DNA from: Kutzneria chonburiensis
Lineage (GTDB): Bacteria > Actinomycetota > Actinomycetes > Mycobacteriales > Pseudonocardiaceae
Direction of reading: 5' to 3'
NCBI RefSeq assembly: GCF_028622115.1
Contig: NZ_CP097263.1
Span: 4,092,001 to 4,156,000 of the forward strand
DNA: 64,000 nucleotides
Numbering within the stretch: position 1 is the stretch's first letter; every line of letters starts with the position of its first letter. A model generated the notes under the pieces. It was not told where the DNA came from, ran no database searches, and was given only the letters and a program-made list of their open reading frames with translations. Both the position numbers and the translations under genes were made by a program. Below, piece by piece: positions 18,968 through 52,158 of this stretch.

Positions 18968-19020
18968 GTCACATGCGGTCCGGATGTGCCTCAGGGAGGC
19001 AAGTATGACGCGCATGTGAC
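18968..19020. repeat. 53-bp palindromic repeat, copy A1
   Basis: Ends are GTCACATGCG and CGCATGTGAC, a perfect ten-base inverted repeat. The centre contains GAGGCAAGT. It starts four bases past the stop of the GlxA-type gene. The same 53-bp layout recurs at 20110, 49376, 52029 and 52106. Confidence 0.85.
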
Positions 19021-19027
19021 ATTTGGG

Positions 19028-19036
19028 TTGTCCACA
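19028..19036 (+). promoter_or_regulatory. DnaA-box-like TTGTCCACA, first copy
   Basis: A perfect match to the actinomycete DnaA box TTGTCCACA, eight bases after repeat copy A1 and upstream of the nuclease-fold gene. A second copy in the same direction lies exactly 40 bases on. Confidence 0.5.
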
Positions 19037-19067
19037 GGGGATGGGACGGGACGGTGGGTTGAGGGAG

Positions 19068-19076
19068 TTGTCCACA
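19068..19076 (+). promoter_or_regulatory. DnaA-box-like TTGTCCACA, second copy
   Basis: Identical nine-base sequence to the copy at 19028, in the same orientation. Both sit in a longer shared context GTTGTCCACAGGGG. Two sites do not make an origin; a regulatory or DnaA-titrating role for the downstream gene is possible. Confidence 0.5.
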
Positions 19077-19110
19077 GGGGCGAGGGGGGATGGTTGCGGC
19101 GAGGGCCGGT

Positions 19111-20094
19111 ATGCCGACCATGGAGTGGGTGACCCGACTTTCCAAGACCGACTTCGCATTGCTCGCCGAAAGGTTCCCCGACGCTGTCGCCACGTGGCGA
19201 GATCTCGTCAAGCTCGGCGTCGGCGAGGCCGTGCCCTCTCGCCGGTGTCGCCCGGGCGGCGGTTGGACGAGACTGTTGACCGGCACATATCTGCTGACCG
19301 GAGGCGCGCCGTCCAGACGACAACTCGTCCGAGCTGCCCTGCTTCGCGCCGGACCGCTTGCGGTCGTCACAGGAGTCGAAGGCGCGCGGCGGCACGGCGT
19401 CCGAAGGCTCCCCGACGAGCTCCGCGTCCATGTGTTGGTGCCCGGTGGCCAACACGTCAGCAGCCAGTCGTTTCTCCTGGTCGAACGAACCGAGCGGCCA
19501 TGGCGTCAGAGCATGGTCGACGGCTTTCCCATTGCCCAGCCCGCTCGGTGCCTCGTCGACGCTGCCCGTCGCGAACAACGAATCGACACCGTTCGCGCCA
19601 TGATCGCGGACGCGGTGCAACGGGACGCCTGTTGCGTCCAGTCGCTGGCCACAGAGCTCAGGCATTTGCGGCTGCGTGGCACCGCAGTTCCTCGATCAGT
19701 GCTGGATGAGGTGAATGCCGGTGTGCGTTCAGCAGCCGAGGCATGGGCGCGGCGGCTCGTACGTCGTACCTCGCTACCCGAACCGGAGTGGAACGTCGAA
19801 CTCCGCTCAGCCACAGGTCACAGGCTCGCCATTGTCGACGCGTGGTGGGAGGACGTCGGTCTGGCCTGGGAGATCGACTCGAAGGAGTTCCACTTGGCTC
19901 CTTCGGACTACGAACGAACGATGACCAGGCACTCCGCGTTGGCGGCCGCGGGTGTGATGGTCGTGCACACCTTGCCGTCACAACTGAAGAAGGATCCCTC
20001 CGGCGTCGTACGTGATCTCGTCGCCGCCCATGAATGGGCCAACCGATCGCCCCACCCCGCCGTCACCACCGCCCTCTACCGCCCCACCGCCTAA
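19111..20094 (+). CDS. AbiEi/DUF559-like protein with PD-(D/E)XK nuclease-type C-terminus
   Basis: A 327-residue protein. The N-terminal half resembles AbiEi-type winged-helix antitoxin/regulator proteins of actinobacteria (a helical region, then SRRCRPGGGWTRLLTGTYLLTG and VTGVEGARRHGVR, shown in parts). The C-terminal ~110 residues carry a DUF559/VSR-like nuclease core: VDAWWEDVGLAWEIDSKEFH supplies the D...E-x-D-x-K arrangement with the following His. It may be a DNA nuclease or a toxin-antitoxin relative; activity is unproven and no partner gene is adjacent. ATG at 19111 has GAGGG five bases ahead; the ATG at 19090 is an alternative. It is bracketed by inverted copies of the 53-bp repeat and preceded by two DnaA boxes. 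Confidence 0.75.
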   Translation: MPTMEWVTRLSKTDFALLAERFPDAVATWRDLVKLGVGEAVPSRRCRPGGGWTRLLTGTYLLTGGAPSRRQLVRAALLRAGPLAVVTGVEGARRHGVRRLPDELRVHVLVPGGQHVSSQSFLLVERTERPWRQSMVDGFPIAQPARCLVDAARREQRIDTVRAMIADAVQRDACCVQSLATELRHLRLRGTAVPRSVLDEVNAGVRSAAEAWARRLVRRTSLPEPEWNVELRSATGHRLAIVDAWWEDVGLAWEIDSKEFHLAPSDYERTMTRHSALAAAGVMVVHTLPSQLKKDPSGVVRDLVAAHEWANRSPHPAVTTALYRPTA

Positions 20095-20109
20095 CCCCCA
20101 CCCCCAAAC

Positions 20110-20162
20110 GTCACATGAGCGTCGTACTTGCCTCTATACGTCACATCCGGACCGCATGTGAC
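20110..20162. repeat. 53-bp palindromic repeat, copy A2 (inverted relative to A1)
   Basis: The reverse complement of this copy matches A1 closely, including the GTCACATGCGGTCCGGATGT start and the GAGGCAAGTA core. It begins 15 bases after the stop of the nuclease-fold gene, so A1 and A2 form an inverted pair around that gene. Confidence 0.85.
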
Positions 20163-20210
20163 GTATGGGGGGTGCGGTTGGGGGTGGGTGGTGTACGCGT
20201 GGTGAGGTGG

Positions 20211-20231
20211 GTTGACACCGGGCGTGTCAAC
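20211..20231. promoter_or_regulatory. Perfect inverted repeat GTTGACAC-N5-GTGTCAAC
   Basis: Eight-base arms with a five-base centre, about 200 bases before the YcaO start. It has the size of a dimeric regulator site. TTGACA inside the left arm could also serve as a -35 element, but no fitting -10 follows. Confidence 0.5.
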
Positions 20232-20279
20232 CACTGGTTGTGGCCGTGACCTGGTGATGTGCGACGCGATCTCATTGTC

Positions 20280-20297
20280 TGACCAACCAGTTGGTCA
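20280..20297. promoter_or_regulatory. Operator-like palindrome TGACCAAC-CA-GTTGGTCA
   Basis: Eight-base perfect arms with a two-base centre, typical of TetR-type operators. It lies 135 bases before the YcaO start. No TetR gene is adjacent; the LAL regulator of the facing operon is the only regulator nearby. Confidence 0.55.
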
Positions 20298-20432
20298 ACA
20301 TCCGAGGTGTGTCCGCGCGGCCCGTCAACCACTGCCCGTTCGACCCGAAAGCTGAGCAGCGCTTACTACATCACTTGGTAAAAGTCGGGACCGATGTCAG
20401 CGTTGTCGTATGCGGGCAGGACGGAGTCGACG

Positions 20433-21599
20433 GTGCACGTGATGCCGGTACCGGCCGAGAGGGGCCTGCCGCTCGACACCGCGCTCGCGCGCGGCCTGGC
20501 GGCGGCCGGGGAGCTCGGCCTCACCCCGAGGTTCACGCCGCTGCTCGACGCCGACCCGGGCAGCTGGCGGTGCTCGCTCGGCTCGCCGGCCGGCTGCCGG
20601 CCGGCGGCCGACGGCCACGGCCGCGGTGACCGGGCGTCCGCGCGGGTCGGCGCCCTGTTCGAGGCGCTGGAGCACTACCTGAGCGGGCTGGACGGCCTGC
20701 GCAATCGGCAGGTGCGGCTGCGTGATGCGCACGAGGTCGCGCACGGCCCGCTGGCGTCGGATCCGCTCATCGCCAAGCTGGCCGACGGCCCGGCCCGTGA
20801 GCTGGGCTGCGTGCGCTACCAGGCGCTCGACGGCAGCGCCGAGGTGGACGTGCCGGTGTTCCTGACCATTCCGGAGTACCGCCGCGAGCCCGGCGAGTCG
20901 GCCCGGCTGACCGTGGAGGACTTCTACGACTACTCGGCCGCCGGTCCCTGTGTCGAGGCCACCGGCTGGGCCGCCGGTTCCTACGCGGCCGAGGCGCTGG
21001 TGCACGCGGTCAACGAAGCCGTCGAGCGGGATGCGCTGGCCCAACTCGTGGCCGACCAGCTGACCGGCGAGCACATGCGGCCGCTCCGGATGGTCGACCC
21101 GGCCACGCTGCCCGACGACCTCGCCGACCTGATGACCGCCGCGTCGGACCGCTGCGGACGGCCGGTGCACTTGATCGACATGACCTCCGACCTGGACGTT
21201 CCGGCCTTCTACGCGGTCCAGGCGCCGGAGCCCGGCGGGCGGCCGGCGGGCGGCAGTGCGGCGGCGCTGTCCAGCCGGGTCGCGGCCGGTCGCGCGCTGA
21301 CCGAGCTGATCCAGGTCCAGACCACGACCGACGACCGCGCCCTACCCAACCTCGCGTGTCGGTTGGGTGACGCTGTGACGGTCGGCTTCGTGTCGAGCTG
21401 CGGCCCGTCGACGCCACGCCAGCACCTCGACGTGCTGGTGGAGCTGTTACACGGCAAGGGTTTCACGCCGTACGCACGGGAGCAGTACACAACGCGGAAC
21501 CTGGCCGTGGTCAACGTGTTCGTGCCGGGGCTGGACCGGTCCATCGATTGCCGGCGGCTGCGGGTCAGTCGCCGTCGTGCTCAAGCGCCCACCGGGTGA
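20433..21599 (+). CDS. YcaO-family ATP-dependent backbone-activating enzyme
   Basis: A 388-residue YcaO protein. The ATP-site signatures are present in family order: DGHGRGDRASARVGALFEALEHY (shown as the SGKG-type loop plus E-x3-E helix), then VHAVNEAVERDALAQ, and later GRALTELIQVQ. YcaO enzymes activate peptide amides with ATP to make azolines, thioamides or amidines in ribosomal peptides, or thioamidate proteins. No docking protein, dehydrogenase or obvious precursor is adjacent, so the substrate is unknown. GTG at 20433 has GGAG six bases upstream; ATG at 20394 would add 13 residues. The 3' end overlaps the facing LAL regulator gene by 35 bases. Confidence 0.85.
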   Translation: MHVMPVPAERGLPLDTALARGLAAAGELGLTPRFTPLLDADPGSWRCSLGSPAGCRPAADGHGRGDRASARVGALFEALEHYLSGLDGLRNRQVRLRDAHEVAHGPLASDPLIAKLADGPARELGCVRYQALDGSAEVDVPVFLTIPEYRREPGESARLTVEDFYDYSAAGPCVEATGWAAGSYAAEALVHAVNEAVERDALAQLVADQLTGEHMRPLRMVDPATLPDDLADLMTAASDRCGRPVHLIDMTSDLDVPAFYAVQAPEPGGRPAGGSAAALSSRVAAGRALTELIQVQTTTDDRALPNLACRLGDAVTVGFVSSCGPSTPRQHLDVLVELLHGKGFTPYAREQYTTRNLAVVNVFVPGLDRSIDCRRLRVSRRRAQAPTG

Positions 21600-24163
21600 G
21601 CGCCGGCCGCGTGCTCAGCCGCAGCTTCTTGTAGCTGTTGTGCAGGTGGGTCTCGATGGTCCGCTCGCTCAGGAACAGCTGCTCGGCGATCTGCCCGTTG
21701 GTCAGGCCCTGGCCGACCAGCCGCACGATCTCCCGCTCGCGCCGGCTCAACGGCTGCGTGCCGCGATTCGGCACGGACAGCGTGGCCCCCATGGCACCAA
21801 GCCGCTCGCCGGCCCGGTCGTCCTCGCCGGCCATCAGCTCTTCCTGCCGCTGGGCCAACGCGTCCAGGAACGGCGACGTCCGACCGCCGGCCTTGAGGTA
21901 GCCCAGAACCTGGAGGGCCGCGGCGTTATCCTTGCGTGCCACGGCCAGGTACCCGGCGAACGCGACCCGTAGCGTATCGACGAGGTGATCGCCGAGTGGG
22001 CGCAGCGGCATGAACACAGTGTCGTCGACCTTGGCCCCGGTCCGCAGCGCGTACGCCGTCTCGGCCAGGTCGGTGACCATGACGAGGTCGTCGTGGCTGG
22101 CGTCGTAGCACTCCCGGACGACCTTCAGGTCCTGCTCGGCCCGGGCCAGATTCCCGTTCTCCGCCAACAGGAACGCCCGCGCCGCGCGGGCCCGGCCGAC
22201 CAGCCGGTCCTGCCCCGTCCGCTCGGCCTCGGCCACGCTCTCGTCGGCATTCTCCAGCGCTGCCGGCAGGTCGCCGGCGATGTAGAGGACCCAGCTGCGG
22301 ATCTGGATCACGTACTGCACGGCGCCGGGCAGGTAGAACTGGACCTGGTGCGCGCCCGGATTGCCGGTCGCCCGCAGCGCCGCCGGCACGTCGCCGCGCA
22401 GCACCAGCAGGCCGGGCTGCTGGAGTTTCACCGCGTAGCCGTACTGTTCCCGCGACTCGACGTCGATCTGCTCGGCCGCCTCGACGGCGATCTGGTTCTG
22501 CGTGTGGGCGGCCGTGTAGTCGCCGCCGACCCGGGCCGCGATACTGGCCCCGAAGTGCGCGACCACCCGGGCCTCGGGCGTGTCCTGGTACTCGGTCAGG
22601 CCGATCATGCGGTCCAGCACCGACCACACCCGGTCCAGGTCGTTGGCCCGCACGGCGAGCAGCCAGTGCACCATCAGCCCGATCGGCGGGTCCTCGGACT
22701 CGAACTGCACCGGCTGCATCGGCGTGCGCACGTTGCCGCGCTCGGCCTCCAGCATCGACCGGTAGTAGCCGAGAACGCGTTGCCGCAGCAGGTTTCCTCG
22801 CTCAGGGCCATGGCCTCGGCGTGATCCCAGATCGACGCGGCATCGTCGAGGCGTCCGCTGGCCTGCAAGGCACGGGCCAGGCCGTCCATCAGGTCCGGGA
22901 TCATCTCGGCGTGGTCGAGCGATTCAGCATGGTGCAGCGCGACGCTGAGGTAGTTCACGGCCTCGCGCGCGTCATGCACGTCCAGGGCCCGCTTTCCTGC
23001 CGCGCCAAGGACTTCACACGCTCGTACCGGGTCGACGAGATCGCCGGCGTCGCGGTAGTGCGGGGCCGCCTTGAGCACATCGGTACGGTCCAGCGCGGCG
23101 GCGATGGTGGCGTGCAGCGAACGTCGTTGTCCCACAGTGAGTTCCGCGTACGACACCTCGGCGTACAGCGGATGCGACACGCGGTAGCTCAGGGTCGGGC
23201 CGTCCACCAGCTCTTCGATCAGGCCCTGCTGGAACAGTTGGCGCAGCACGGTGTCGAAGCCGTCCTCCGTCCACAGTGAACGGAGTAGACGCGGCGATCC
23301 GGTGCCGGCCACGGCGATCAGCTCCAGCAGCCGCCGAGCCTGATCGTCCAGGCGCTGCAAGCGATCCAGCACCACGTCACGGATGATCACCGGCAGACCG
23401 GCCGGGATCTCGCCGCCGCCGACCAACGCCGTCACGAACAGCGGGACACCCTGGGCCCGGGCGGTGACCCGGCTCAGCACCTCGGCCCGTGGCGGCGTGC
23501 CGAGCAGGTCGCCGACGAGCTCGCCGACCGCCTTGTCCGACAACGGTTCCAGCGCCAGTTCGACTCCTTCCTCCCGCCGCACGGTCATGGCCAGCGCGGC
23601 CAGCGGACCGCCCGGCTCGGCGCTGCGGTAGCCACACCACAACAGCAGGCGGCGCCGCCTGCTCCCCGGCCCAGGTAGTGCAGCAGTTCGATGGTGCCAC
23701 GGTCGGCCCAGTGCAGGTCGTCCACCACGATAAACGCGGGCCGCTCGGCCGTGATCCGCTCGACCAGGCGCAGCACGGCCTCGAACATCCGGGTGCGTTC
23801 CAGGTCCGGATCACCGGTCGGCGGGGCCGGCGACAGCCGGGAGTCGGCGATCAGGCCGGCGATGTCGTGCAGGCCGGCCAGCAGCTCGGCCGACTCGGTC
23901 TCGGGCAGCGTGCCGAGGTGGCGGCGCAGCGCCTCGACCACCGGGGCGTAGGCCAGGCCGGCCTGCAGCGGGCTGGCCGAGCCCATCAGCACGGTGAAGC
24001 CGCGCTCCTTGGCCAGCCGCAGCGAGCTGATCGCCAGCCGCGACTTGCCGATGCCGGCCTGGCCGGAGACCAGCAGCATGCGACCGTTGTTCGCGGCGAC
24101 CGCGTCGATCGCCGCGGTGATGATCCCCAGCTCGCGTTCCCGGCCGACCAGCCTCGACTCCAC
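21565..24163 (-). pseudogene. LAL-family (MalT-like) LuxR regulator split by two single-base deletions
   Basis: The locus encodes one ~866-residue regulator in three frames. The first part (24163 to ~23665) has the P-loop [10 protein letters not shown] and Walker [12 protein letters not shown]. The middle part (~23665 to ~22795) begins [13 protein letters not shown] and continues the ATPase/winged-helix region. The last part (~22795 to 21565) is a TPR-like region and ends with a LuxR helix-turn-helix (LSRREREIVRLVGQGLTNGQ). Restoring one base in CCCC at 23664-23667 and one in TTT at 22793-22795 rejoins everything as [13 protein letters not shown] and LSEENLLRQRV. All domains remain conserved, so a sequencing error is more likely than decay. 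It is the last gene of a three-gene operon facing YcaO. Confidence 0.85.
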
Positions 24164-24187
24164 GCGCCAGAGTATGCCTCACTCGGC

Positions 24188-25063
24188 CTAAGGTTTGAGC
24201 CCGGTCAGCACGGTCAGCGCCGGCTGTCGGCCTACATCCACCCGGCGCAGCGCGGTCAGGCCGGCGTCGGCCAGCCAGCGGCGGTAGTCGGCCGGGTCGT
24301 GGATGACGCCGCCGCGGGTACGGAGCAGCAGCGACAGCTCATGCGTGGCCGCGCCCTGCGAGCCGGCCAGCGTGTCGATCACGGCCAGCGTGCCGCCGGC
24401 CCGCAGGGCCGGCGCGTAGCGGCGGATCAGCTCGGCCGCGCAGTCGGCGTCCACCAGGTGGCAGACGCCGGACAGCACGACCAGGTCGTACTCGCCGGGG
24501 CCGGGCTGGGCGTCGAACAGGCCGCCGGGCAGGAAGTCGAACTGCCGGCAGCTGGTGCGGCGGTTGGCCGGCACGTCCAGCACGCTGACCCGGGCCTGCG
24601 GGTCGCGGGCCGCCAGCGTGGTGCCGCACGGCGCCCCGTCCACGCTGACGTCCAGGATGCGCTTGGCCGCCGGCAGTTCGGCGACGACATCGGTCCGCAT
24701 GCCGTGCAGCAGAACCGTGATCACGTCACGCTCGGCCTCGCGGGCCGGTAATCCGGTACGGACCGTGTCGGTGACCTGGTCGCGCCAGGGCAGCATCGAA
24801 TGCACCGAGGCCAGGCCGGCGGTCGCCGGCTCGTAGCGGCCGTCGGCCCGCAGCTGCACGAGGCCGCTGTCGGCCAGCGTCGCGAGCACCACTCGAACCC
24901 CGCGAACGCTTGCGCCGCAGGCCATCGCCAGCTCGTCGACGGTGGCCGGCGTGCGGTCGATGTGGTCGACCAGGCCCAGCTGGACCGCCGCCGAGTAGGC
25001 CGACAGCGTGGCCGCCGCCCGGTGCAGGCCCAGCAGTGCCCCCGTGTTCTGGGCGGCCGTCAT
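24188..25063 (-). CDS. O-methyltransferase-fold protein with altered SAM motif
   Basis: A 291-residue relative of the acetylserotonin/small-molecule O-methyltransferases. The N-terminal dimerisation winged-helix domain (~10-95) is typical (AAVQLGLVDHIDRTPATVDELA in parts). In the SAM domain, motif I, normally DVGGGxG, reads ILDVSVDGAPCGTT, and the stretch after VLDVPANRR is about ten residues shorter than usual. Later parts (YDLVVLSGVCHLV, LRAGGTLAVIDTL) are normal. It may bind SAM weakly or do something else. ATG overlaps the stop of the upstream TPR gene (ATGA at 25060-25063) and 24 bases separate it from the LAL regulator, so the three form one operon. Confidence 0.82.
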   Translation of the reverse strand: MTAAQNTGALLGLHRAAATLSAYSAAVQLGLVDHIDRTPATVDELAMACGASVRGVRVVLATLADSGLVQLRADGRYEPATAGLASVHSMLPWRDQVTDTVRTGLPAREAERDVITVLLHGMRTDVVAELPAAKRILDVSVDGAPCGTTLAARDPQARVSVLDVPANRRTSCRQFDFLPGGLFDAQPGPGEYDLVVLSGVCHLVDADCAAELIRRYAPALRAGGTLAVIDTLAGSQGAATHELSLLLRTRGGVIHDPADYRRWLADAGLTALRRVDVGRQPALTVLTGLKP

Positions 25064-25332: not shown

Positions 25333-25358
25333 GGTGGGGTCGAACCTCGCCGCGACCG

Positions 25359-37439: not shown

Positions 37440-38276
37440 ATGACGTCACTTGCCCGTTCCCGCCGGGCCGCGGTCGCCGTCGCGGCCGCCGCCGCGGCGG
37501 TGTTGGCCTGCGTGACCCCGGGCTCCGCCGGCGCGCAGCCGCAGCTGACCGCGACGTTCACCGAGGACTTCAACGGGGCGGCCGGCAGCGCCGCCAACGG
37601 CAGCCGGTGGAACTACGAGACCGGCGACAACGTCAACAACCACGAGCGTGAGTGGTACACGTCCGGCGCGGCCAACGGGGCGCTGGACGGCAACGGCCAC
37701 CTGGTCATCACGGCCAAGAAGGAGGGCGGCCACACCTGCTGGTACGGCCCGTGCCAGTACACCTCGGCCCGCCTGACCACGGCCAACAAGTTCAGCGCCC
37801 AGTACGGCCATGTCGAGGCGCGCATGCAGATCCCGCGCGGCCAGGGCATGTGGCCGGCGTTCTGGATGCTGGGCGCGAACATCGGGCAGTCCGGGGTCGG
37901 CTGGCCCAAGTGCGGCGAGATCGACATCATGGAGAACATCGGCAAGGAGCCGAACACCGTGCACGGCACCATCCACGGGCCCGGCTACTCCGGCTCCGGC
38001 GGCATCGGCGCGGCCTACAACGGCCCGGTCTTCGCCGACGGCTTCCACACCTACGCGGTGGACTGGTCGCCCAACAAGATCGTGTGGTCGGTCGACGGCC
38101 ACGCGTACGAGACGCGCACCCCGGCCGATGTGCACGGCAACGCGTGGGCGTTCAACCACCCCTTCTACATCATTCTCAACCTGGCCGTCGGCGGCTACTG
38201 GCCGGGTGACCCCAACGGCAGCACGCCGTTCCCGGCCAAGCTCGTCGTCGACTATGTTCATGTCACTACTGCCTGA
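37440..38276 (+). CDS. Secreted GH16 endo-beta-1,3-glucanase (laminarinase type)
   Basis: A 278-residue exported enzyme. The signal peptide (1-32) has the twin basic start and Ala-rich core ending AGAQ. The GH16 catalytic motif E-x-D-x-x-E is GEIDIMENIG at about 159-164. Other hallmarks are the substrate-cleft RMQIPRGQGMWPAFWMLG and ILNLAVGGYWPGDPNG. It cleaves beta-1,3 (or 1,3-1,4) glucans such as fungal wall laminarin. There is no accessory binding domain, unlike its paralogue 300 bases downstream. GGAGG precedes the ATG at 37440. A strong hairpin follows the stop. Confidence 0.93.
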   Translation: MTSLARSRRAAVAVAAAAAAVLACVTPGSAGAQPQLTATFTEDFNGAAGSAANGSRWNYETGDNVNNHEREWYTSGAANGALDGNGHLVITAKKEGGHTCWYGPCQYTSARLTTANKFSAQYGHVEARMQIPRGQGMWPAFWMLGANIGQSGVGWPKCGEIDIMENIGKEPNTVHGTIHGPGYSGSGGIGAAYNGPVFADGFHTYAVDWSPNKIVWSVDGHAYETRTPADVHGNAWAFNHPFYIILNLAVGGYWPGDPNGSTPFPAKLVVDYVHVTTA

Positions 38277-38294
38277 CATGTAAGCGTTTCTCGG

Positions 38295-38327
38295 TTCCCG
38301 CCCGGAGCGCGAAGCACCGGGCGGGAA
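38295..38327 (+). terminator. Strong hairpin terminator after the GH16 gene
   Basis: Eleven-base perfect arms TTCCCGCCCGG/CCGGGCGGGAA around an eleven-base loop, 18 bases past the stop. No T-tract, as is common in actinomycetes. Confidence 0.75.
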
Positions 38328-38349
38328 CTGTCGCGCGTCCTAGTTGATC

Positions 38350-38377
38350 TTGACGTGGCGGGACTTGTTCCTAGTCT
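38350..38377 (+). promoter_or_regulatory. Promoter TTGACG-N16-TAGTCT
   Basis: The -35 is at 38350-38355 and the -10 at 38372-38377, about 215 bases ahead of the GH16-lectin gene. The long leader may carry further control such as the GTATGAA/TTCATAC pair. Confidence 0.5.
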
Positions 38378-38592
38378 TGTATGAAGTGTCCGCGCAGGCA
38401 TTGCCAAATGTGGTTCATACCTCTGATACTCGTCGCACCGACGGGTCACATCCCTGCGCCCGTTGGACTTCGACCCCTGCCGTAGACCGATTTCGCGACC
38501 CTGCAAGGAAAACCGCCGCACTCTGCCGAGATCCGCCCTCGGTCGGTGCCTCCTGCGGTGCGAACACAACGTTCCCCGAGAGGCGAAAGCTC

Positions 38593-39837
38593 ATGCGCAG
38601 ACACAGACATCTCCTGCTCGCCGCGGTGCTCGCGGCGACAACCGTCGTCCCGTTGGGACTGACCGCATCGGCGGCCCCCGCCGCGCCCGCGGCCACCACC
38701 ACCTTCAGCGACGACTTCGACGGCCCGGCCGGCAGCCCGGCCGACGGCGGCAAGTGGTCCTACGAGACCGGCGACAACGTCAACAACCACGAACTCGAGT
38801 GGTACACGGCCGGGTCGAACAACGCCGCGCTGGACGGCCAGGGCCACCTGGTGATCACGGCCAAGCGCGAGAACCCGGGCAACAACAACTGCTGGTACGG
38901 CTACTGCCAGTACACCTCGGCCCGGCTCAACACCGCGCAGCGCTTCACCCAGGCCTACGGCCACTTCGAGACCCGCATGCAGATCCCGCGCGGCCAGGGC
39001 ATGTGGCCGGCGTTCTGGATGCTGGGCGACAACATCGGCGACCCGAACGTGGGCTGGCCCAACAGCGGCGAGATCGACGTCATGGAGAACGTCGGCAACG
39101 AGCCCGGCACCGTGCACGGCACCATCCACGGCCCCGGCTACTCCGGCTCCGGCGGCGTCGGCGCCGGCTACTCGCTGCCCGGCGGGCAGGCCTTCGCCGA
39201 CGGCTTCCACACCTTCGCGATCGACTGGTCGCCCAACCGGATCACCTGGTCCGTGGACGGAAACGCCTACGAGACAAGGACTCCGGCCGACATCAACGGC
39301 AACCGGTGGGTGTTCGACCACCCGTTCTTCATCATCATGAACCTGGCCGTCGGCGGCTACTGGCCGGGCAATCCCGATGGCAGCACGCCGTTCCCGGGCA
39401 AGCTGGTGGTGGACTACGTGCACGTGACCACCGGCGACAGCGGCCCGCCGCCGGGCGGCGGCGGCACGATCACCGGCATCGGCGGCAAGTGCATCGACGT
39501 GGCCGGGGCCAACTCCGCCAACGGAACCGCCGTCCAGCTCTACGACTGCAACGGCACCGCCGCGCAGCAGTGGTCCGTCGGCAACGGCCAGATCAAGGCG
39601 CTGGGCAAGTGCCTCGACGTCTCCGGCGGCGGCACCGCCAACGGAACCGTCGTGCAACTGTGGGACTGCAACGGATCCGGCGCGCAGAACTGGACCGTCA
39701 GCGGGGCCAACGACATCGTCAACATCCAGGCCAACAAGTGCCTCGACGCCTCGAACAACAGCTCCGCCAACGGGACCAGGTTGCAGATCTGGGACTGCTC
39801 CGGCAACGCCAACCAGAAGTGGACGGTGAACAGCTGA
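38593..39837 (+). CDS. Secreted GH16 beta-1,3-glucanase with ricin-type lectin domain
   Basis: A 414-residue exported enzyme. A signal peptide (1-27) leads to a GH16 domain (~30-275) highly similar to the upstream GH16 protein. It has GEIDVMENVG as catalytic motif. A Gly/Pro linker (DSGPPPGGGG) joins it to a ricin-B-type (CBM13) lectin of about 125 residues in three repeats, each ending in a Q/N-x-W site (AQQW, AQNW, NQKW) and with paired Cys. The lectin would hold the enzyme on glucan or other wall sugar. Its stop overlaps the next start (ATGA-type TGATG at 39835-39839), making the first gene of a three-gene operon. Confidence 0.93.
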   Translation: MRRHRHLLLAAVLAATTVVPLGLTASAAPAAPAATTTFSDDFDGPAGSPADGGKWSYETGDNVNNHELEWYTAGSNNAALDGQGHLVITAKRENPGNNNCWYGYCQYTSARLNTAQRFTQAYGHFETRMQIPRGQGMWPAFWMLGDNIGDPNVGWPNSGEIDVMENVGNEPGTVHGTIHGPGYSGSGGVGAGYSLPGGQAFADGFHTFAIDWSPNRITWSVDGNAYETRTPADINGNRWVFDHPFFIIMNLAVGGYWPGNPDGSTPFPGKLVVDYVHVTTGDSGPPPGGGGTITGIGGKCIDVAGANSANGTAVQLYDCNGTAAQQWSVGNGQIKALGKCLDVSGGGTANGTVVQLWDCNGSGAQNWTVSGANDIVNIQANKCLDASNNSSANGTRLQIWDCSGNANQKWTVNS

Positions 39838-40901
39838 TGCGCCGGCGAATCCTCACCCTCCTGGCCGGATTGCTGTTGGCCCTGCCCCTGTTCGGGCTCA
39901 GCTCGGCGCCGGCCATGGCGTCCGACCCCGGCGGCCCGTCGGCCAGCCAGCTGCTGGCCAAGGTGACCAACTGCCAGCAGATCTCGCACGGCAGCTACGC
40001 CACCGACGAGGGCCAGCCCGGCACGGTTCCGGTGTGCCAGGCCAATGGCGCGGTGTTCTTCAAGGCCGACATGGACGTCGACTGCGACGGCCAGCGCACC
40101 ACGCAGTGCAACGAGCAGACCGACTGCTGCTTCTACCCGGACACCGCTTTCCACACCTCCAACGACCAGCCGCTCAACGCCGCTCAGCTGCCGTACATCG
40201 TGCTGCCGAGCCCGTCGGGCATCTGGGACTACCGCACGGCCGGCATCGACGGCGGCGCGGTGGTGGCGGTGATCTACAACAACCAGGTGACCTACGCGGT
40301 CGTCGGCGATACCGGACCCACCGGCATCATCGGCGAGTCCTCCTACGCCACCGCGCAGTCGCTGGGGATCAACCCTGACCCGAAGAACGGCGGCACCGAC
40401 AGCGGCGTGACCTACATCGTGTTCCCGCACTCCAAGGTGAACCCGATCGAGAGCCACAGCAGCGCCGTCTCGCTGGGCCAGCAGCTGGCCACCACCTTCG
40501 TCGGTGGCGGCGGCAACCCGCCGCCGCCCACCGGCGGCACGATCACCGGCATCGGCGGCAAGTGCATCGACGTGGCCGGGGCCAACTCCGCCAACGGATC
40601 CGCCGTTCAGCTCTATGACTGCAACGGCACCGCCGCGCAGCAGTGGTCGGTGAGCAACGGCCAGATCAAGGCGCTGGGCAAGTGCCTTGACGTCTCCGGG
40701 GCCAACTCGGCCAACGGGACCGTGGTCCAGCTGTGGGACTGCAACGGCAGCGCCGCGCAGAACTGGTCCCGTCCGGGCGACGGCTCGATCCGGGCGTTGG
40801 GCAAGTGCCTCGACGCCTCCAACAACAGCTCCGCCAACGGAACCCGGTTGCAGATCTGGGACTGCGCCGGCTCCGCCAACCAGAAGTGGACGGTCGCATG
40901 A
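39837..40901 (+). CDS. Secreted GH75 chitosanase with ricin-type lectin domain
   Basis: A 354-residue exported enzyme. After a signal peptide (1-28) comes a GH75-type chitosanase domain (~35-225) with DMDVDCDGQRTTQCNEQTDCCFYPDT (in parts) and YAVVGDTGPTGIIGESSYATAQSLG (in parts), the Asp/Glu-bearing blocks of fungal and actinobacterial chitosanases. A Gly/Pro linker precedes a three-repeat ricin-B lectin nearly identical in DNA to that of the upstream gene. It cuts chitosan, a partly deacetylated fungal wall polymer. Start overlaps the upstream stop; its own stop overlaps the next start (ATGA at 40898-40901). Confidence 0.9.
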   Translation: MRRRILTLLAGLLLALPLFGLSSAPAMASDPGGPSASQLLAKVTNCQQISHGSYATDEGQPGTVPVCQANGAVFFKADMDVDCDGQRTTQCNEQTDCCFYPDTAFHTSNDQPLNAAQLPYIVLPSPSGIWDYRTAGIDGGAVVAVIYNNQVTYAVVGDTGPTGIIGESSYATAQSLGINPDPKNGGTDSGVTYIVFPHSKVNPIESHSSAVSLGQQLATTFVGGGGNPPPPTGGTITGIGGKCIDVAGANSANGSAVQLYDCNGTAAQQWSVSNGQIKALGKCLDVSGANSANGTVVQLWDCNGSAAQNWSRPGDGSIRALGKCLDASNNSSANGTRLQIWDCAGSANQKWTVA

Positions 40902-42264
40902 TCAGGAAGTCCGTCACCCTGCTGGCCGGGGTGGCCGCGCTGGCGACCGTGCTGCTGCCGGGCACGGCGTCCGCGGCGACCGGCACGATCACCGGCATCG
41001 GCGGCAAGTGCGTCGACATCGCCGGGGCCAACTCCGCCAACGGAACCGCGGTCCAGCTCTACGACTGCAACGGCACCGGGGCCCAGCAGTGGACCACCGG
41101 CTCCGACGGCAGCATCCAGGCGCTGGGCAAGTGTCTCGACGTGGCCGGGGCCAACGCGGCCAACGGCACCAAGGTGCAGATCTGGGACTGCAACGGCACC
41201 GCCGCGCAGCAGTGGACCATCGGCTCCAACGGCGCGATCCAGGCGCTGGGCAAGTGCTTGGACGCCACCAACAACAGCTCGGCCAACGGGACCCTGCTCC
41301 AGATCTGGGACTGCGCCGGCTCGCCCAACCAGACCTGGACGGCGCCCGGCGGCGGCACCACTCCCCGCCGCCGCCCCCGCCGCCGAACGGGGCGATGGCC
41401 GTCGCGCCGTACTACTTCAACGGCTGGGGCAACCCGCCGGACCCGCGCACGGTCATGAGCGCCACCGGCGTCAAGTGGTTCACCATGGCGTTCGTGCTCA
41501 ACAACGGGTACTGCACCCCGATGTGGGACGGCGGCCGGCCGCTGACCGGCGGCGTCGACCAGAACACCATCAACACGATTCGGTCGGCCGGCGGTGACGT
41601 GGTGCCGTCGTTCGGCGGGGCCAACGGCAACAAGCTGGAAGCCTCCTGCAACAACGCCAACGACCTGGCCGGGGCCTACCAGAAGGTGATCAACACCTAC
41701 GGCCTCAAGGCCATCGACCTCGACTTCGAGGGCGACGTCTACGGCAACGGCACCATCCAGCAGCGGCTGGTCGACGCACTGAAGATCATCCGGGCCAACA
41801 ACGCCGGGCTGGCCGTCTACGTCACCATCGGCAGCGGGCAGAACGGCCCGGGCAACGACCTGATCACCCGCGCGGCCAACTCCGGGCTGACCGTGGACGT
41901 GTGGACGATCATGCCGTTCGACTTCGGCGGCGCCGGCCAGGACATGGCCCGGCTGACCGCGCAGGCCACCGACGGCCTGGAGCGGGCGGTCCGCGACGCG
42001 TACCACTACACCGACGACGTCGCCTACCGGCACAGCGGCCTGTCGTCGATGAACGGCATCACCGACAACAACGAGCGGGTGACGGTGGCCAACGCCCAGA
42101 CCATGGTGGGCTACGCCAACCAGCACCACCTCGGCCGGTTCACCTACTGGGCGACCAACCGGGACCGGCCGTGCCCCGGCGCCTACCCGAACGACGACAC
42201 CTGCTCGGGTGTCGCCCAGAACGCGTGGGACTTCACCCGGACGTTCGCGCAATACAAGGGCTAA
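40898..42264 (+). pseudogene. Secreted lectin-GH18 chitinase, frame broken by one missing base
   Basis: A signal peptide (MIRKSVTLLAG..., ending ASA) and a three-repeat ricin-B lectin lie in one frame up to GGGTTP. The proline linker and the GH18 domain lie in the next frame: APYYFNGWG, GGDVVPSFGGANG, and the catalytic D-x-D-x-E in KAIDLDFEGD. Adding one C to CCCC at 41363-41366 joins them as a ~455-residue enzyme. The linker is a run of CCG/CCC codons, where a miscall is easy. The domain order is reversed compared with the two upstream genes. It likely degrades chitin. It is the last gene of the operon and a terminator follows. Confidence 0.88.
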
Positions 42265-45854: not shown

Positions 45855-45858
45855 GACC

Positions 45859-46887: not shown

Positions 46888-46915
46888 TGTACTCCACGCG
46901 GGATGGCGCCGGGTT

Positions 46916-48016: not shown

Positions 48017-48018
48017 CC

Positions 48019-49338
48019 GTGTTGGCGGTCGACGCCCTCGGCCCCGCCGGGCCTTACCGCGCACGTAAGCAGTTGCCGATCACCGACGTCACCGGCTCCC
48101 CAGTCGCTTCCGTCACCTTGGTACCGCGCCTTTTCGTCACGCGCACCATGGCTGCGTTGAACCGGTCGACGCCGCTGCCGCTGGCCGACCGACTCAAGGC
48201 CTTGACACTCGCCGGTTCCTTGTTCGCCAAGGACTCCGAGTCCTATGTGGACGTGGTCACCCGCGTTTCCGGGCTGCCCCGGGACGACATCCGCAGCGCC
48301 GTCGAGACCCTCGCCGAAGCCTGTTGCACGGCCTACACTGCCGCTCAGCAGGGCCGGCCCATCGGGGCTTCGGAGTCCCTTGTGGACGAAGGCGGCGTGT
48401 GGGTCCGCCGCGGCACCGTCTTCACCGTGTTGGCCGCCGGCAACCACCCCGCCGTGCATTCCCTGTGGCTGCAAGCACTTGCCCTCGGCTACCGCGTCGC
48501 CGTCCGCCCCTCCCGGCGGGAGCCTTTCACCCCGCACCGACTCATCTCCGCCCTCCGCGCCGCCGGCTTCCCACCCGATCACGTTGCCCTGCTTCCGTGC
48601 GAGCACGACGTCGCCGACGAGCTGCTCCGCTGCGCCGACCTCGGCCTGGTCTACGGCGGCGACGACGTCATCGCCAAGTACGCCGACAATCCCAAGGTCC
48701 TCCCCCAGGGCCCCGGCCGCAGCAAGATCCTGCTCACCGCCGAGTGGGCTCCCTCCCTCGACACCATCGTTTCCTCGATCGCCCACCACGGCGGCGTCGG
48801 CTGCATCAACGCGACCGGCATCCTCGTCGAAGGCGATCCCACTCCCCTGGCCACTGCCCTCGCCGCCAAACTGGCCGCCCTCCCGAATTCCGTGCTCCCG
48901 CGCTATCCCCTCGCCGCGGCCCTGACCCTGCGCGACCACCTCGCCCACCGCACCGCCGGCACTCACCCCTTGCTCGGTGTCGATCAACTCGTCACCGACC
49001 TCGGTGACGGATCCGCCGTGCTCCGCCCGGCCCTGCACCTCCTGCCGTCGGCCACTGCCCCGCAGCTAGGCGCCGAACTGCCCTTCCCGTGCGCCTGGAT
49101 CGCCCCCTGGTCCCGCGCCGACGGCATGCAGCCCCTGCGCAACACCCTCGTCCTCACGGCCATGACCAACGACCAGTCCCTCATCGCCGAACTGCTGGCC
49201 GAACCGACCATCGCCAACCTCTACGTCGGCGACCGCCCGACCCACTACTTCCACCCGCATCTCCCCCACGACAGCTACCTCACCGACTTCCTCATGCGCA
49301 CCAAGGCCGTAACCCAAACCCCCGCGAGTCCCGCCTAG
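48019..49338 (+). CDS. LuxC-like acyl-CoA/acyl-enzyme reductase
   Basis: A 439-residue aldehyde-dehydrogenase-fold reductase. FTVLAAGNHPAVHSLWLQALALGYRVAVRPSRREP (in parts) fits the nucleotide-binding fold, and the nucleophilic Cys is in HHGGVGCINATGILV. LuxC and EhpG reduce an activated acid to the aldehyde with NADPH. GTG at 48019 follows the adenylating enzyme by two bases. The last five codons and the TAG stop at 49336-49338 lie inside the left arm of repeat element B2, so the C-terminus TPASPA is partly repeat-encoded. The true ancestral end may have been elsewhere. Confidence 0.85.
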   Translation: MLAVDALGPAGPYRARKQLPITDVTGSPVASVTLVPRLFVTRTMAALNRSTPLPLADRLKALTLAGSLFAKDSESYVDVVTRVSGLPRDDIRSAVETLAEACCTAYTAAQQGRPIGASESLVDEGGVWVRRGTVFTVLAAGNHPAVHSLWLQALALGYRVAVRPSRREPFTPHRLISALRAAGFPPDHVALLPCEHDVADELLRCADLGLVYGGDDVIAKYADNPKVLPQGPGRSKILLTAEWAPSLDTIVSSIAHHGGVGCINATGILVEGDPTPLATALAAKLAALPNSVLPRYPLAAALTLRDHLAHRTAGTHPLLGVDQLVTDLGDGSAVLRPALHLLPSATAPQLGAELPFPCAWIAPWSRADGMQPLRNTLVLTAMTNDQSLIAELLAEPTIANLYVGDRPTHYFHPHLPHDSYLTDFLMRTKAVTQTPASPA

Positions 49339-49484
49339 CGGCACACCGAATGTAGGTTTCGAGCAGAAGGCTCCAGTCACATGCGGTCCGCACGTGCCTC
49401 TGGGAGGCAACAACGACGCGCATGTGACATCCGAGTGTGCGCGAAACCGCATTTCGGTGTGACGGAGAGCGGGACTCACGGAGG
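49321..49484. repeat. Long palindrome family B copy B2, with a 53-bp repeat nested in its loop
   Basis: The left arm (49321-49368) and right arm (49435-49484) match those of B1 at 37177-37294. The loop between them is 66 bases and holds a complete family A copy at 49376-49428. The left arm contains the stop codon of the LuxC-like gene and the right arm ends in the GGAGG ribosome site of the sugar kinase gene. Confidence 0.85.
49376..49428. repeat. 53-bp palindromic repeat, copy A5 (nested in B2)
   Basis: Ends GTCACATGCG and CGCATGTGAC are perfect. The core is GAGGCAACA. It lies wholly in the loop of palindrome B2, with no clear target duplication. Confidence 0.85.
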
Positions 49485-49491
49485 TCAGGGC

Positions 49492-50877
49492 GTGCGGGAA
49501 GTCATGCTCGGAATCGACGTCGGCACCACGGCGGCGAAGGTCGCGGCGTTCGGCCTCGACGGGGAACCCCTCGAAACCCGCACGGTCGGCTACCCGATCC
49601 ACCGCCCGCGACTGGGCTGGGCCGAGCAGGACGCGAACGACTGGTGGCGGGCGGTCGACGAAGGCGTGACCGCGATGACGGCCCGCTACCGGATCCGCGC
49701 GGCCGGGATCGTCAGCCAGGTCAACACGCATCTACTGGTGGACGCCGACCTGAACCCGTTGACGACGGCGATCATCTGGCAGGACCAGCGCTGCGCGGCG
49801 ATCGCCAAGGAGCTCGACGGCCGGTACACGGAAGCCGACAAACAGCGCATCTGGGGCGGGCCGATCGTGCTGGACGCCTCGTTCGTCGGCGCGCGGGCGG
49901 AGTGGTTCGCCCGCAACGAGCCCGAGGCCTGGCGCAAAGCCCGCTGGATCCTGAGCCCGAAGGACTTCATCGGCGCCAAGCTGACCGGCCGGGTGGCCAC
50001 TGACCTGCTGTCCGGCGTCCGGATCGCCAACGCCGACGGCTATCTCGCCGAGGCCATGACCGACGGCCTCCAGGAACGGCTGCCGGAGATCCTCGCGCCG
50101 GAAACCATCCTCGGAAACGGCCTGGTCGTCGGCACGATGGACGCGTACGGAGCGGTCTTCGGCACGGCCACCACGGAACCCGGCCGGGGCATGATCTCGT
50201 GCGGAACGTCGCTGGTGGTGGCCGGCGCGTCGACGGAGAACGTCCCGACCGCCGGGATCGTCACCTTCCCGCCCCGCAACGGACTCTACGTGCACGCCGG
50301 CCCGACGCAGGCCGCCGGCGACGCCGTGCGATGGTGGAGCGAGACCAGCGGCCTGAGCATCCCCGAGGTGTTCGCCGACGCCGCCAACGGCAGGTCACAG
50401 GTGATCTTCACGCCCTATCTGTCCGGCGAACGGGCCCCGCTCTGGGATTCCTCGCTGCGGGCGAGCTTCCTGAACGTGAGCGCCGCGACCACACGAGCCG
50501 ACCTGTCCCGAGCGGTGCTCGAAGGCGTCGCGATGTCGGCCCGGCACGTGCTCGACTTCGTCGAACAGGCCGCCGGCCGGCCGATGAAAGCGCTTGCCTT
50601 CGTCGGCGGCGGGGCGCGCAGCGACTTCTGGGCCCAGTTGCATGCGGACGTCCTGCAACGCCCGGTCCGGCAGCTCCGCGTGCACGACAGCGCGGCGCTG
50701 GGCGCGGCCCTGCTCGGCTCGGTCGGCGCCGGCCTGCATCCCGACGTCGAAACCGCAGGTGAGGCCGCTGTCGCCGTCCGGGCGACGGTCGAGCCGTCAG
50801 AATCCAACCACCTGTATGAGGTTTATGTGGGAATTCACCAAGCGCTGCATGACATCCATCACCGGTTGAATCCGTAG
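49492..50877 (+). CDS. FGGY-family carbohydrate kinase
   Basis: A 461-residue sugar kinase. The N-terminal phosphate loop is MLGIDVGTTAAKVAAF, followed by GWAEQDANDWWRAV and IIWQDQRC, typical of xylulokinase-type members. The C-terminal FGGY signature region is ALAFVGGGARSDFWAQLHADVLQRPV (in parts) with TPYLSGERAPLWDSS before it. It phosphorylates a pentulose, hexulose or similar polyol; the sugar cannot be read from sequence. GTG at 49492 has GGAGG seven bases upstream, and that site is the edge of repeat B2. An ATG at 49504 is an alternative. Confidence 0.9.
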   Translation: MREVMLGIDVGTTAAKVAAFGLDGEPLETRTVGYPIHRPRLGWAEQDANDWWRAVDEGVTAMTARYRIRAAGIVSQVNTHLLVDADLNPLTTAIIWQDQRCAAIAKELDGRYTEADKQRIWGGPIVLDASFVGARAEWFARNEPEAWRKARWILSPKDFIGAKLTGRVATDLLSGVRIANADGYLAEAMTDGLQERLPEILAPETILGNGLVVGTMDAYGAVFGTATTEPGRGMISCGTSLVVAGASTENVPTAGIVTFPPRNGLYVHAGPTQAAGDAVRWWSETSGLSIPEVFADAANGRSQVIFTPYLSGERAPLWDSSLRASFLNVSAATTRADLSRAVLEGVAMSARHVLDFVEQAAGRPMKALAFVGGGARSDFWAQLHADVLQRPVRQLRVHDSAALGAALLGSVGAGLHPDVETAGEAAVAVRATVEPSESNHLYEVYVGIHQALHDIHHRLNP

Positions 50878-50952
50878 TTCTGGCGTTCGGAGGATTGAGA
50901 TCAACCGGACCGGGTAATCCCAGTTCTTGATGGAGATCGGGAGGGAGGACCG

Positions 50953-51438
50953 ATGAGCGAGCGCAAGGACGGCATGGTGCGCCTGCTGGTGCGCACCGCG
51001 GTGGACCGGATGCAGGCCTCGGACCCCGACGGGGCGCTGGACGCGTTGACGTCGCTGTACCGCGGCGCCGACCACAGCCCGAGAGAGGCCGCCGACGTGC
51101 TGGCCGACGCCTCGGCCGACATGCTGAAGTCTCTGTGTGTGCAGGTCGGGGATGGTGCACCGATCAAGATGCAGCTGGGCGACACCGAGGGCAACGAGAT
51201 CCCGATCGACGACATCGACCCGCCGCTGCGGGCCAGCTTCCGCGCGGTGATGGCGCTGGTCAACGCCGACGAGCAGTCCGCGGACGTGCAGCTGGGCCTG
51301 GTCTTCGACCGGCACGATCCGGAAGAGGACACCGTCGCGCTGATGCACCTGCTGCTGTGGACCACCGACCTGCTGACGGCGTGTCGCGAGGGCGGCGCCC
51401 GGGCGCCGGACTGGCTGGTCGACTCCTCGGCCGGCTAG
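50953..51438 (+). CDS. Conserved-looking hypothetical protein
   Basis: A 161-residue soluble protein that I do not recognise. It is acidic and largely helical in its first half (DRMQASDPDGALDALTSLYR, then SPREAADVLADASADMLKSL). A short beta-like middle (KMQLGDTEGNEIPIDDIDPP) follows, then a helical end with LMHLLLWTTDLLTACREGG. GGGAGGA precedes the ATG at 50953. It starts a run of three small same-strand genes (50953, 51461, 51850) between the sugar kinase and the M20 hydrolase. Confidence 0.7.
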   Translation: MSERKDGMVRLLVRTAVDRMQASDPDGALDALTSLYRGADHSPREAADVLADASADMLKSLCVQVGDGAPIKMQLGDTEGNEIPIDDIDPPLRASFRAVMALVNADEQSADVQLGLVFDRHDPEEDTVALMHLLLWTTDLLTACREGGARAPDWLVDSSAG

Positions 51439-51460
51439 AACGACAAGGAAAGCACCCCAC

Positions 51461-51760
51461 ATGAACTCCTTCGAGGAGACGGTCGAGCTCGCGGTGCCCC
51501 TGCGCACCGCGTACGAGCAATGGGACAGCCACAGCTCCTCGCCGCGCCCCGTGACCGCGCACCGCCGGAACGAGCTCATCGCCTGGCCCGGCGGACGGGT
51601 CACTTTCGAGTACATCGACACCCACACCACCCGACTCGTGCTGCGCGCGGACCCGGACACCACGCCGGCCGGCATCCTGCTGCGCTTCAAGGAGTTCGTG
51701 GAGTCGGCCCCGGTGACCTCGCCGGCCACCCGGCAGTACTGGCGAGTGGAAAGAGCCTGA
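51461..51760 (+). CDS. Short SRPBCC/polyketide-cyclase-like protein
   Basis: A 99-residue protein. The start NSFEETVELAVPLRTAYEQWD is the typical first strand and helix of START/SRPBCC proteins of the cyclase-dehydrase type. The following RVTFEYIDTHTTRLVLRADPD matches late strands of that fold. About 50 residues of the middle, including the F-P-x-F helix, are absent compared with the usual 145-residue domain, so it is a compact or degraded form. AAGGAAAG precedes the ATG. It sits 22 bases after the previous small gene. Confidence 0.65.
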   Translation: MNSFEETVELAVPLRTAYEQWDSHSSSPRPVTAHRRNELIAWPGGRVTFEYIDTHTTRLVLRADPDTTPAGILLRFKEFVESAPVTSPATRQYWRVERA

Positions 51761-51849
51761 TCGGGTTACCCCCGTGGGGGTAGTTTCACCCTCGGGCGGC
51801 GGCGGACCCTGGTAGGCAGGCATCAGCACCTGGGGAGGGAGTTTTGCTG

Positions 51850-52011
51850 ATGTCGCCAGGCACTCCGATCTTCGACCAACTGGCCGCGGCCAGCGGCCTG
51901 CACTGGGTGACCCTGCCGGACGGCCGCATCAAGGTCGCGCTGGGCGAGCCGCGCAAGAAGGACACGGCAACCGAGCCGGCCAGACCCGGCCACCGCGCCC
52001 CCGTCTCCTGA
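51850..52011 (+). CDS. Small 53-residue hypothetical protein
   Basis: The frame reads SPGTPIFDQLAAASGLHW, then VTLPDGRIKVALGEPRKKD and a Pro/Ala-rich end. GGGAGGGAG lies ten bases before the ATG, or four before an in-frame TTG at 51844. Codon third positions are strongly G/C, supporting real coding. I do not recognise it. It ends 17 bases before repeat copy A3. Confidence 0.6.
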   Translation: MSPGTPIFDQLAAASGLHWVTLPDGRIKVALGEPRKKDTATEPARPGHRAPVS

Positions 52012-52028
52012 CGCCCCACCCGCCCAAT

Positions 52029-52081
52029 GTCACATGCGCTCCTCACTTGACGCCCAGCGGCAAGTACGGAGCGCATGTGAC
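52029..52081. repeat. 53-bp palindromic repeat, copy A3
   Basis: The arms extend to 14 perfect bases (GTCACATGCGCTCC/GGAGCGCATGTGAC). The inner part pairs further as ACTTG/CAAGT. With A4 it forms a direct tandem pair of period 77 bases, each preceded by CCGCCCAAT. Confidence 0.87.
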
Positions 52082-52105
52082 ATCCGAACCGCCATACCGC
52101 CCAAT

Positions 52106-52158
52106 GCCACATGCGCTCCTCATGTGACGCCTGGAGGCAAGTGCGGAGCGCATGTGAC
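52106..52158. repeat. 53-bp palindromic repeat, copy A4
   Basis: Same length and ends as A3 with one base changed in the left end (GCCACATGCG). It contains GAGGCAAGT. It finishes two bases before the stop codon of the M20 hydrolase on the opposite strand. Confidence 0.87.

Follow-up and report, generated by a model that had tools for sequence, protein, structure and literature searches.

Five copies of a palindrome of exactly 53 bp are scattered over a 64,000-nucleotide stretch of the chromosome of the soil actinobacterium Kutzneria chonburiensis (NZ_CP097263.1, positions 4,092,001 to 4,156,000 of the forward strand; hereafter the window), and the question raised by this locus is what they are and what brought them there. 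A first-pass annotation saw in them either a mobile element akin to the repetitive extragenic palindromes (REPs) or an RNA-hairpin element, set just past gene ends; this proposal is sustained by fixed-length copies throughout the genome, placement at 3' ends, presence or absence at orthologous sites, nesting and paired arm changes. Two things had escaped it: the length of 53 bp recurs in unrelated palindrome families, and these are accompanied by a nuclease-like gene. In the window this gene is an open reading frame (ORF) of 334 aa (19090..20094, plus strand) located between two of the palindromes; its product has an AbiEi-like region and a weak C-terminal match to the Vsr-type domain MTES_1575, and is the candidate cognate enzyme. 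We consider it moderately probable that the repeats belong to a REPtron-like system, as short mobile palindromes that are not autonomous and whose cognate gene is this nuclease-like one.

All five copies, each 53 nt long, are where the annotation had placed them. The first (18968..19020, plus strand) starts 4 nt past the stop codon of 18067-18963 and the second (20110..20162, minus strand) 15 nt past that of ORF 19090-20094; both are of the asymmetric subtype A and, in opposite orientations, enclose the ORF as its left and right flanks. A third subtype A copy (49376..49428, plus strand) is nested, as claimed, at the centre of another palindrome, a longer one of 120 nt (~49342..49461, ends placed by eye) whose CACACCGAA.. 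arms belong to another repeat family. The last two (52029..52081 and 52106..52158, both plus strand) are of a near-perfect subtype with CGCTCC arms. The former starts 17 nt past a 55-aa ORF (51844-52011) left uncalled by the ORF caller, the nearest called stops being 268 nt to its left and 79 nt to its right; gene 52161-53393, on the minus strand, has its stop 2 nt from the latter, in which one end base is changed. The 2-17 bases from a stop reported for four copies agree with these distances, and the two copies said to have an end one base off are 52106 (GCCACATG at one end) and 20110 (GTCACATGAG in the tenth-base end). The pattern GTCACATG-N(30-45)-CATGTGAC matched four of the five, with a spacer of 37 in all, and gave nothing in 100 shuffles of the window. 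As RNA, four copies folded far better than their shuffles (z from -4.4 to -7.6), the 20110 copy being no better than its own (z -0.6). Some subtype A copies share a tail, ATTCGAATGTG, beyond the 53 bp; it is seen as ATTCGAATGTG(C) at, for example, L150 7896-7946 and L169 8077-8129. The sequence CACATTCGAATGTG is itself palindromic and resembles the inner parts of the CACATGTGG subtype.

When the whole genome (G000; 10,411,187 bp, one contig) was searched, the strict pattern occurred at 36 places, every one of them 53 nt long though 46-61 nt were allowed, and the reversed-pattern control at none. Up to two mismatches at fixed spacing raised the number to 139, with a single control match. The lengths are fixed and the copies exceed chance, so the claim of a fixed 53-bp element holds; four identical 53-mers of the CACATG type are found far apart in this one chromosome. 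A covariance model built from 30 copies matched 149 of the best 150 candidates of the genome. Model searches of this kind considered the best 48-150 candidates per genome with both strands counted, so that their figures are lower bounds and not plain copy counts. Outside this genome the strict pattern, with wider spacing, was present in only two others of the 60 genomes examined, G002 (9 places) and G003 (one place, 54 nt), all three being members of the genus Kutzneria. Of the 12 stretches returned by a scan of named genomes, Kutzneria sp. 744 contributed 8; the remaining four were single matches that differed in length.

The rpoB regions of six Kutzneria genomes (400 kb each) were then scanned for any near-perfect palindrome. 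Besides scattered ordinary hairpins, these blocks contained palindrome families unrelated in sequence which have the same odd centre and the same 53 bp, i.e. the CACATG types and a GAAGG superfamily; in a smaller GTGAGTGG type the edges are less clear, with 51 columns matching in most copies. Matches to the latter were few in G000, G003 and G006 (3, 5 and 4 per 400 kb). With the three seed sets, nhmmer found 98 matches in the blocks and the window. The 34 GAAGG elements align without gaps over 53 columns, in which 91.6% of the cells pair and two-sided changes number 189, versus 61 in shuffles, with few G-U steps. In the CACATG alignment pairing is 79.6%, above its shuffles yet below GAAGG, and paired arm changes are present. 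The histogram of palindrome lengths, based on pairing, is blurred by chance extension. In 263 same-genome pairs with at most 4 differences, identity is about 1.0 within the 53 bp, 0.77-0.80 at the second base from each end and 0.57-0.62 at the first outside base, from where it falls towards the 0.31 background. The two outside bases of the unit favour purine-pyrimidine. Sub-palindromes within the arms were only weakly above shuffles.

The GAAGG type is widespread: with the best 48 candidates per genome considered, it was detected (E≤1e-4) in 54 of 120 genomes and 35 of 74 genera. At least 15 GAAGG places in G002 have a single model score in common, as do at least 12 in G005, an argument for recent spread, albeit from scores and not from letters. 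G097, a genome of the same order but of a different family, has 57 matches to the GAAGG model, most of them of 54 nt, versus 2 and 9 in two congeners (both strands), possibly the result of a recent burst.

Are the palindromes tied to the gene which two of them enclose? Among six-frame ORFs from the window, the blocks and 40 further loci, the 334-aa protein gave six matches, itself being one of them. In every case an element lies no more than 200 bp away, of the CACATG type for three and of the GTGAGTGG type for the other three. Homologs at E≤1e-8 are present in 38 of the 60 genomes, at 1-6 each, with five in the window's genome. A further 40 homolog loci were taken with 600 bp per side and with no regard to their flanks, 23 of them from other genera and chosen mostly in order of similarity; 23 loci of the genus were used (two of G004 being left out) and 23 of the matches of other genomes. 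Palindromes were found on both sides in 13 of these 40, on one side in nine and on neither in 18, those inside genes or more than 250 bp from the gene (e.g. L189 1846-1892 and L208 2055-2101) being left uncounted. Six of the 13 form a paralogue group, B, with one member per element-bearing Kutzneria genome (tree support only 53) and GAAGG palindromes on both sides of each gene, the downstream one of L194 being partial. At the other seven, all in other genera, the palindromes measure 41-61 bp and have their own sequence, weakly GAAGG-like in four (L208, L215, L217 and L218). By a strict rule, palindromes were present upstream of 20, downstream of 15 and on both sides of 10 of the 46 homologs, versus 19, 80 and 1 for 800 control genes. 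These controls come from six genomes, all of them Kutzneria; other genera contributed 23 of the 46 homologs.

Two further comparisons bear on this link. In G039, which belongs to another family, the half-site of the gene-flanking palindrome occurs 162 times forward and 167 times reverse, the reversed pattern occurring once each way; the figures are 4 and 0 in G102, a congener with 74% completeness, and 0-1 in four other genomes. Being high-copy, the flanking palindrome is, there at least, a dispersed one. Among 36 genomes of the Kutzneria family, a homolog is present in all 17 with at least 10 GAAGG matches versus 12 of the 19 others (p 0.008). Outside the genus the corresponding numbers are 11/11 and 11/18 (p 0.026), and GAAGG matches correlate with homolog number (Spearman 0.70, 29 genomes); these statistics ignore kinship and their match counts are lower bounds. 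We conclude that the palindromes are linked to a specific gene family in several genera, strongly so by position, moderately by residues, as described below, and with a mixed outcome by the sequence of the flanking copies.

In a phylogeny of the 46 proteins, 6 changes suffice for the four labels, versus 22.9 on average after shuffling. The element families follow the genes within clade A: those of G001 and G002 stand beside CACATG elements, those of G000, G003 and G006 beside GTGAGTGG elements, and the window gene is with subtype A. The GTGAGTGG-linked genes of the last three genomes all have stop codons within the match, and these elements and genes are possibly a dying element-enzyme pair. 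At the sampled loci of the window's genome, subtype A copies have diverged less than those of F1, with a mean of 6.4 differences (39 copies) versus 9.9 (35 copies). Six residues (E217, D250, E261, D263, S264 and H268), putatively catalytic, are complete in 25 of 28 flanked homologs versus one of 18 unflanked ones; that their loss tracks the absence of palindromes is suggestive, short of proof. Two clades of the protein family are unflanked (L189, L191, L197, L200 and L203; L190, L193, L195, L198, L201 and L204). Both occupy conserved loci in most of the genus, with some downstream flanks up to 98% identical, and have lost the EIDS..H motif; they are possibly domesticated relatives.

Placement relative to stop codons, which the annotation had deduced from its few copies, was mapped on the 85 matches of at least 48 nt among the 98. 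The elements sit past stops at a median of 13 nt (n=83), when random placement in the same gaps gives 28 nt; none is in a called gene, 38 are in convergent gaps, 45 in tandem and two in divergent ones, whereas convergent gaps make up 14% of the available room and divergent gaps 26%. For the CACATG copies of the window's genome, the numbers are 33 convergent, 33 tandem, 5 divergent and one in a gene, with a median of 17.5 nt to the stop. This sample combines 40 further loci, the block and the window (88 matches kept, 75 of them CACATG, 72 with usable context and three at fragment ends left out), and its loci come from a model-ranked list, which favours good matches. An element is contained in 36 of 180 convergent gaps. 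Among convergent gaps matched for leftover length, a second hairpin was found in 0/21 and 2/11 element gaps versus 8/19 and 43/58 elementless ones (p 0.001 and 0.0008 for the two length bins); two longer bins hold 4 element gaps only, none with a second hairpin. Given this scarcity, the element seems to be a stand-in that replaces the ordinary hairpin of the gap.

The element differs from a classical terminator. TTTT was found at none of 74 element arm ends, versus 12% of 172 ordinary hairpin ends; a canonical U-tract terminator was rejected on that count, yet ordinary hairpins there also seldom carry TTTT. No consensus terminator was found at window positions 48800-53600. The 12 bases past the element are purine-rich (59%), and the stretch from stop to element is C-rich (43% versus 35% after other stops), which would be compatible with Rho-dependent ending followed by trimming to the hairpin. 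That the palindromes are real, dispersed, of fixed length and located at transcript ends is, in our view, a strong conclusion.

One could account for such placement with no dedicated mover: the palindromes would be hairpins ending transcripts in both directions, which ordinary recombination has spread and homogenized, and the gene between them would be insulated, not responsible. In favour of this are their position past stops and between convergent genes, the scarcity of ordinary hairpins beside them and the two-sided changes with few G-U steps. Paralogue B is also in its favour: in five genomes it occupies the same locus, the flanks being 84-92% identical, so that the gene stays while the palindromes change and are not consistently those of its own genome. 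We nevertheless think this account unlikely, since palindromes are found upstream too (20/46 homologs versus 19/800 controls), family and gene match in clade A, the residues are lost in most unflanked homologs, and the fixed unit has no common flanks.

As to the protein, the PADLOC AbiEi profile matched all 24 aligned members and covers residues 60-192 of the window protein; an NCBIfam search gave nothing informative. Vsr-type folds include the EDxHD homing endonucleases, such as I-Bth0305I. EDxHD is used as a family name in PMC6083498, and the paper naming MTES_1575 (PMC3710099) assigns this domain, in the part available, the Vsr restriction endonuclease fold. From the weak profile match and the conserved motif, the protein would be a nuclease. 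The AbiEi profile could also indicate a defence or toxin-antitoxin-like locus, with an AbiEi-type regulator or nuclease and the palindromes as operators or self-marks. This is improbable: the window's genome has 139 relaxed places for 5 homologs, and at the one locus scanned, that of the window, the two genes next to ORF 19090-20094 code for a DJ-1/AraC-type regulator and a YcaO protein, neither being a toxin partner such as the AbiEii of AbiE systems. A search of plasmids for homologs produced one match, on a Rhodococcus ruber plasmid (37% identity), and a search of phages none.

Turnover was assessed in orthologous gaps (277-330 orthologues per genome pair). In 25 orthologous slots, 69 species-slots are without element, 55 have the family of the seed element and six have another family only. 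At G000 139558 the slot is occupied by CACATG forms in four species and, in a fifth, by a GTGAGTGG form; at G003 275005 two species have 53-mers where the other four have an ordinary hairpin. Elements are present or absent at orthologous gaps; as to empty sites proper, only three alignments passed, one with a net 57 bp where two convergent stops of G001 abut and two with 51 bp at one slot. Nesting is recurrent. Mutually complementary flanks (score of at least 14) surround 9 of 151 copies versus 1.7 expected. In the window's genome, palindromes of another family enclose five CACATG copies (three centrally, including the window copy at 49376, and two off-centre), and GTGAGTGG copies are nested in one another. 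The family with arms like GCGAGTCCCGC..CACACCGAAATGCGG, present at window ~49342-49461, at 21389 of the G000 block (L029) and at 379379 of the G002 block, is the one with five 53-bp elements of the window's genome inside; it may have an enzyme of its own.

A GAAGG-type palindrome at L047, in the window's genome, has its arms (1873-1896 and 3219-3242) 1.3 kb apart around an ORF (1916-3178) with helix-turn-helix and rve transposase domains, that is, an insertion sequence inside a palindrome, which we take to be IS30-like; the arm is identical to that of the palindrome at the G002 gene (L194). A palindrome split by a transposase gene, REP-like placement and palindromy, and the occurrence of PF01797 in 14 of 120 genomes (the congener G003 included, at cut-off) are what can be said for classical REPs moved by a Y1 (HUH) REP-associated tyrosine transposase (RAYT), or for copies moved by the transposase of an insertion sequence. 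Mobilisation by RAYT was rejected: with PF01797 absent from G000, G001, G002, G005 and G006, in each of which elements are found, and with no conserved GTAG end, this origin is very improbable. Chance palindromes or look-alike ordinary terminators can hardly be entertained, common as ordinary hairpins are in the same kind of gap, given 0/100 in window shuffles, reversed-pattern controls of 0 and 1 and four identical 53-mers far apart in one chromosome.

The mobile, nuclease-linked palindromes that we favour would work as follows. Each palindrome family would own cognate AbiEi-like/Vsr-type nuclease genes, lying between or right beside palindrome copies; of such units the window would contain one (18968 / ORF 19090-20094 / 20110), its three other copies being solo. 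The AbiEi-like region would recognise the nuclease's own palindrome and the C-terminal domain would cut DNA, after which repair of the break would copy the 53-bp unit elsewhere, chiefly to the 3' ends of genes and into palindromes already present. At such sites it would act as a two-way hairpin ending or protecting transcripts, a service for which it would be tolerated or kept. That the protein is a nuclease which moves the palindromes by cutting and repair is likely, though inferred.

A number of observations weigh against this scheme. Two homologs, L205 (59% identical to the window protein) and L221, are without palindrome, and L213, L216 and L220 have a palindrome but altered residues. F1 is common in the window's genome, yet none of the five homologs there falls with F1-linked genes. 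The association between residues and flanks comes down to four independent pairs, of which about three agree (p 0.25), because the unflanked proteins fall into few clades. G015 and G035 have at least 41 and at least 48 GAAGG matches, and the one homolog sampled from each lacks both palindromes and residues. The full-length B palindrome is closest to elements of its own genome in only two of six cases (L188 and L199; 400-kb samples); that of L192 is nearer G002 elements, those of L196 and L202 are nearer one of G001, and that of L194 is nearest none of its own block, its model score being equal to that of at least 14 other places in its genome (letters not compared). For the protein, the Pfam MTES_1575 match of the window member is below cut-off (E 2.3e-4, 21.6 bits versus 38.2) and only 4 of 24 aligned members reach E≤0.01; a PDB profile search returned no relative (one match, E 0.1, unrelated) and a single-sequence fold prediction was useless (pLDDT 37). 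Finally, there is no clean insertion signature, gap-length differences being broad and not a clean 53 bp, and no consistent target duplication was seen in the flank profiles or the three empty-site alignments.

We suggest, tentatively and as a possibility slightly short of even, that these loci represent a separate class of mobile DNA, in which a Vsr-type nuclease with an AbiEi-like DNA-binding region and no transposase spreads palindromes of 45-60 bp through cutting and copying by repair, each nuclease lineage having its own palindrome family and the hairpins at host transcript ends being taken over. If so, a parasite rewrites gene 3' ends in the Pseudonocardiaceae and neighbouring families, which would explain the large population of gene-end hairpins in these actinobacteria. 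It would be a nuclease-based counterpart to RAYT, hence a second solution to the spreading of short palindromes, and it would provide defined protein-DNA pairs, testable in vitro.

Other repeats were encountered. In a further hairpin family the ends (TCCCTTG / CGCGGT) and the loop region (CGATCGATGGA.AGACTCGATCG) are fixed, and the stem varies but is paired; its 11 seeds come from five genomes, at 94779, 223875, 259085, 293374 and 373458 of the G001 block and with 1-2 copies each in the blocks of G002, G003, G005 and G006. Direct repeats of 114-264 nt, in 2-9 diverged copies, occupy window 37548-41342 and are probably repeated coding domains.

How do these elements compare with known systems? 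The annotation knew of no named family with this sequence; we rejected a known RNA family, as there is no Rfam match in the window, and found in the open-access literature, outside which most subscription journals lie, neither a description of the repeat nor a paper on nuclease-linked palindromes. TRIT and other actinobacterial hairpin terminators are likewise repeated hairpins downstream of genes, but we know of no enzyme linked to them, whereas a gene is linked here. Miniature inverted-repeat transposable elements (MITEs) are short non-autonomous repeats with inverted symmetry; they differ in that neither a consistent target duplication nor the ends of a parent transposon were seen here, where the flanks show a purine-pyrimidine preference. 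With the Vsr-fold/EDxHD homing endonucleases, the fold and the idea of copying through break repair may be held in common, but the dispersed unit is here a 53-bp palindrome, usually without gene. The long inverted repeats described in PMC3610266, as far as its available part goes, are distinct from the 53-bp palindromes.

The closest likeness is with REPs, REPINs and RAYT: short high-copy palindromes mostly past genes, several families per genome, and a linked gene flanked by them. In the accessible parts of two papers, the REPtron is the pairing of palindromes with a HUH tyrosine transposase (PMC3733652, PMC8266576), and in the first of them the spread of short palindromic repeats is tied to this one enzyme class, RAYT, some repeat families having no known enzyme. 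CGTC-tagged REPs, according to the same portion of PMC3733652, have no dedicated transposase; they too are palindromic repeats without RAYT, but here, unlike there, a gene is linked. The differences are of several kinds. The length is 53 nt (36/36 strict places) versus 20-40 bp for REPs, the arms are near-perfect in two of the Kutzneria families, the host is actinobacterial, and there is no conserved GTAG or CGTC end in the alignments of 30 and 34 elements or in the flank profiles. In place of the HUH tyrosine transposase there is a Vsr/MTES_1575-like protein that has an AbiEi-like part. The REPtron trait of an enzyme gene flanked by its own repeats is present with a different protein, the identity of flanking and dispersed copies being only partly shown. 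To conclude, the Kutzneria system is REPtron-like without being a REPtron: arrangement and placement agree, and tag, length and enzyme differ.

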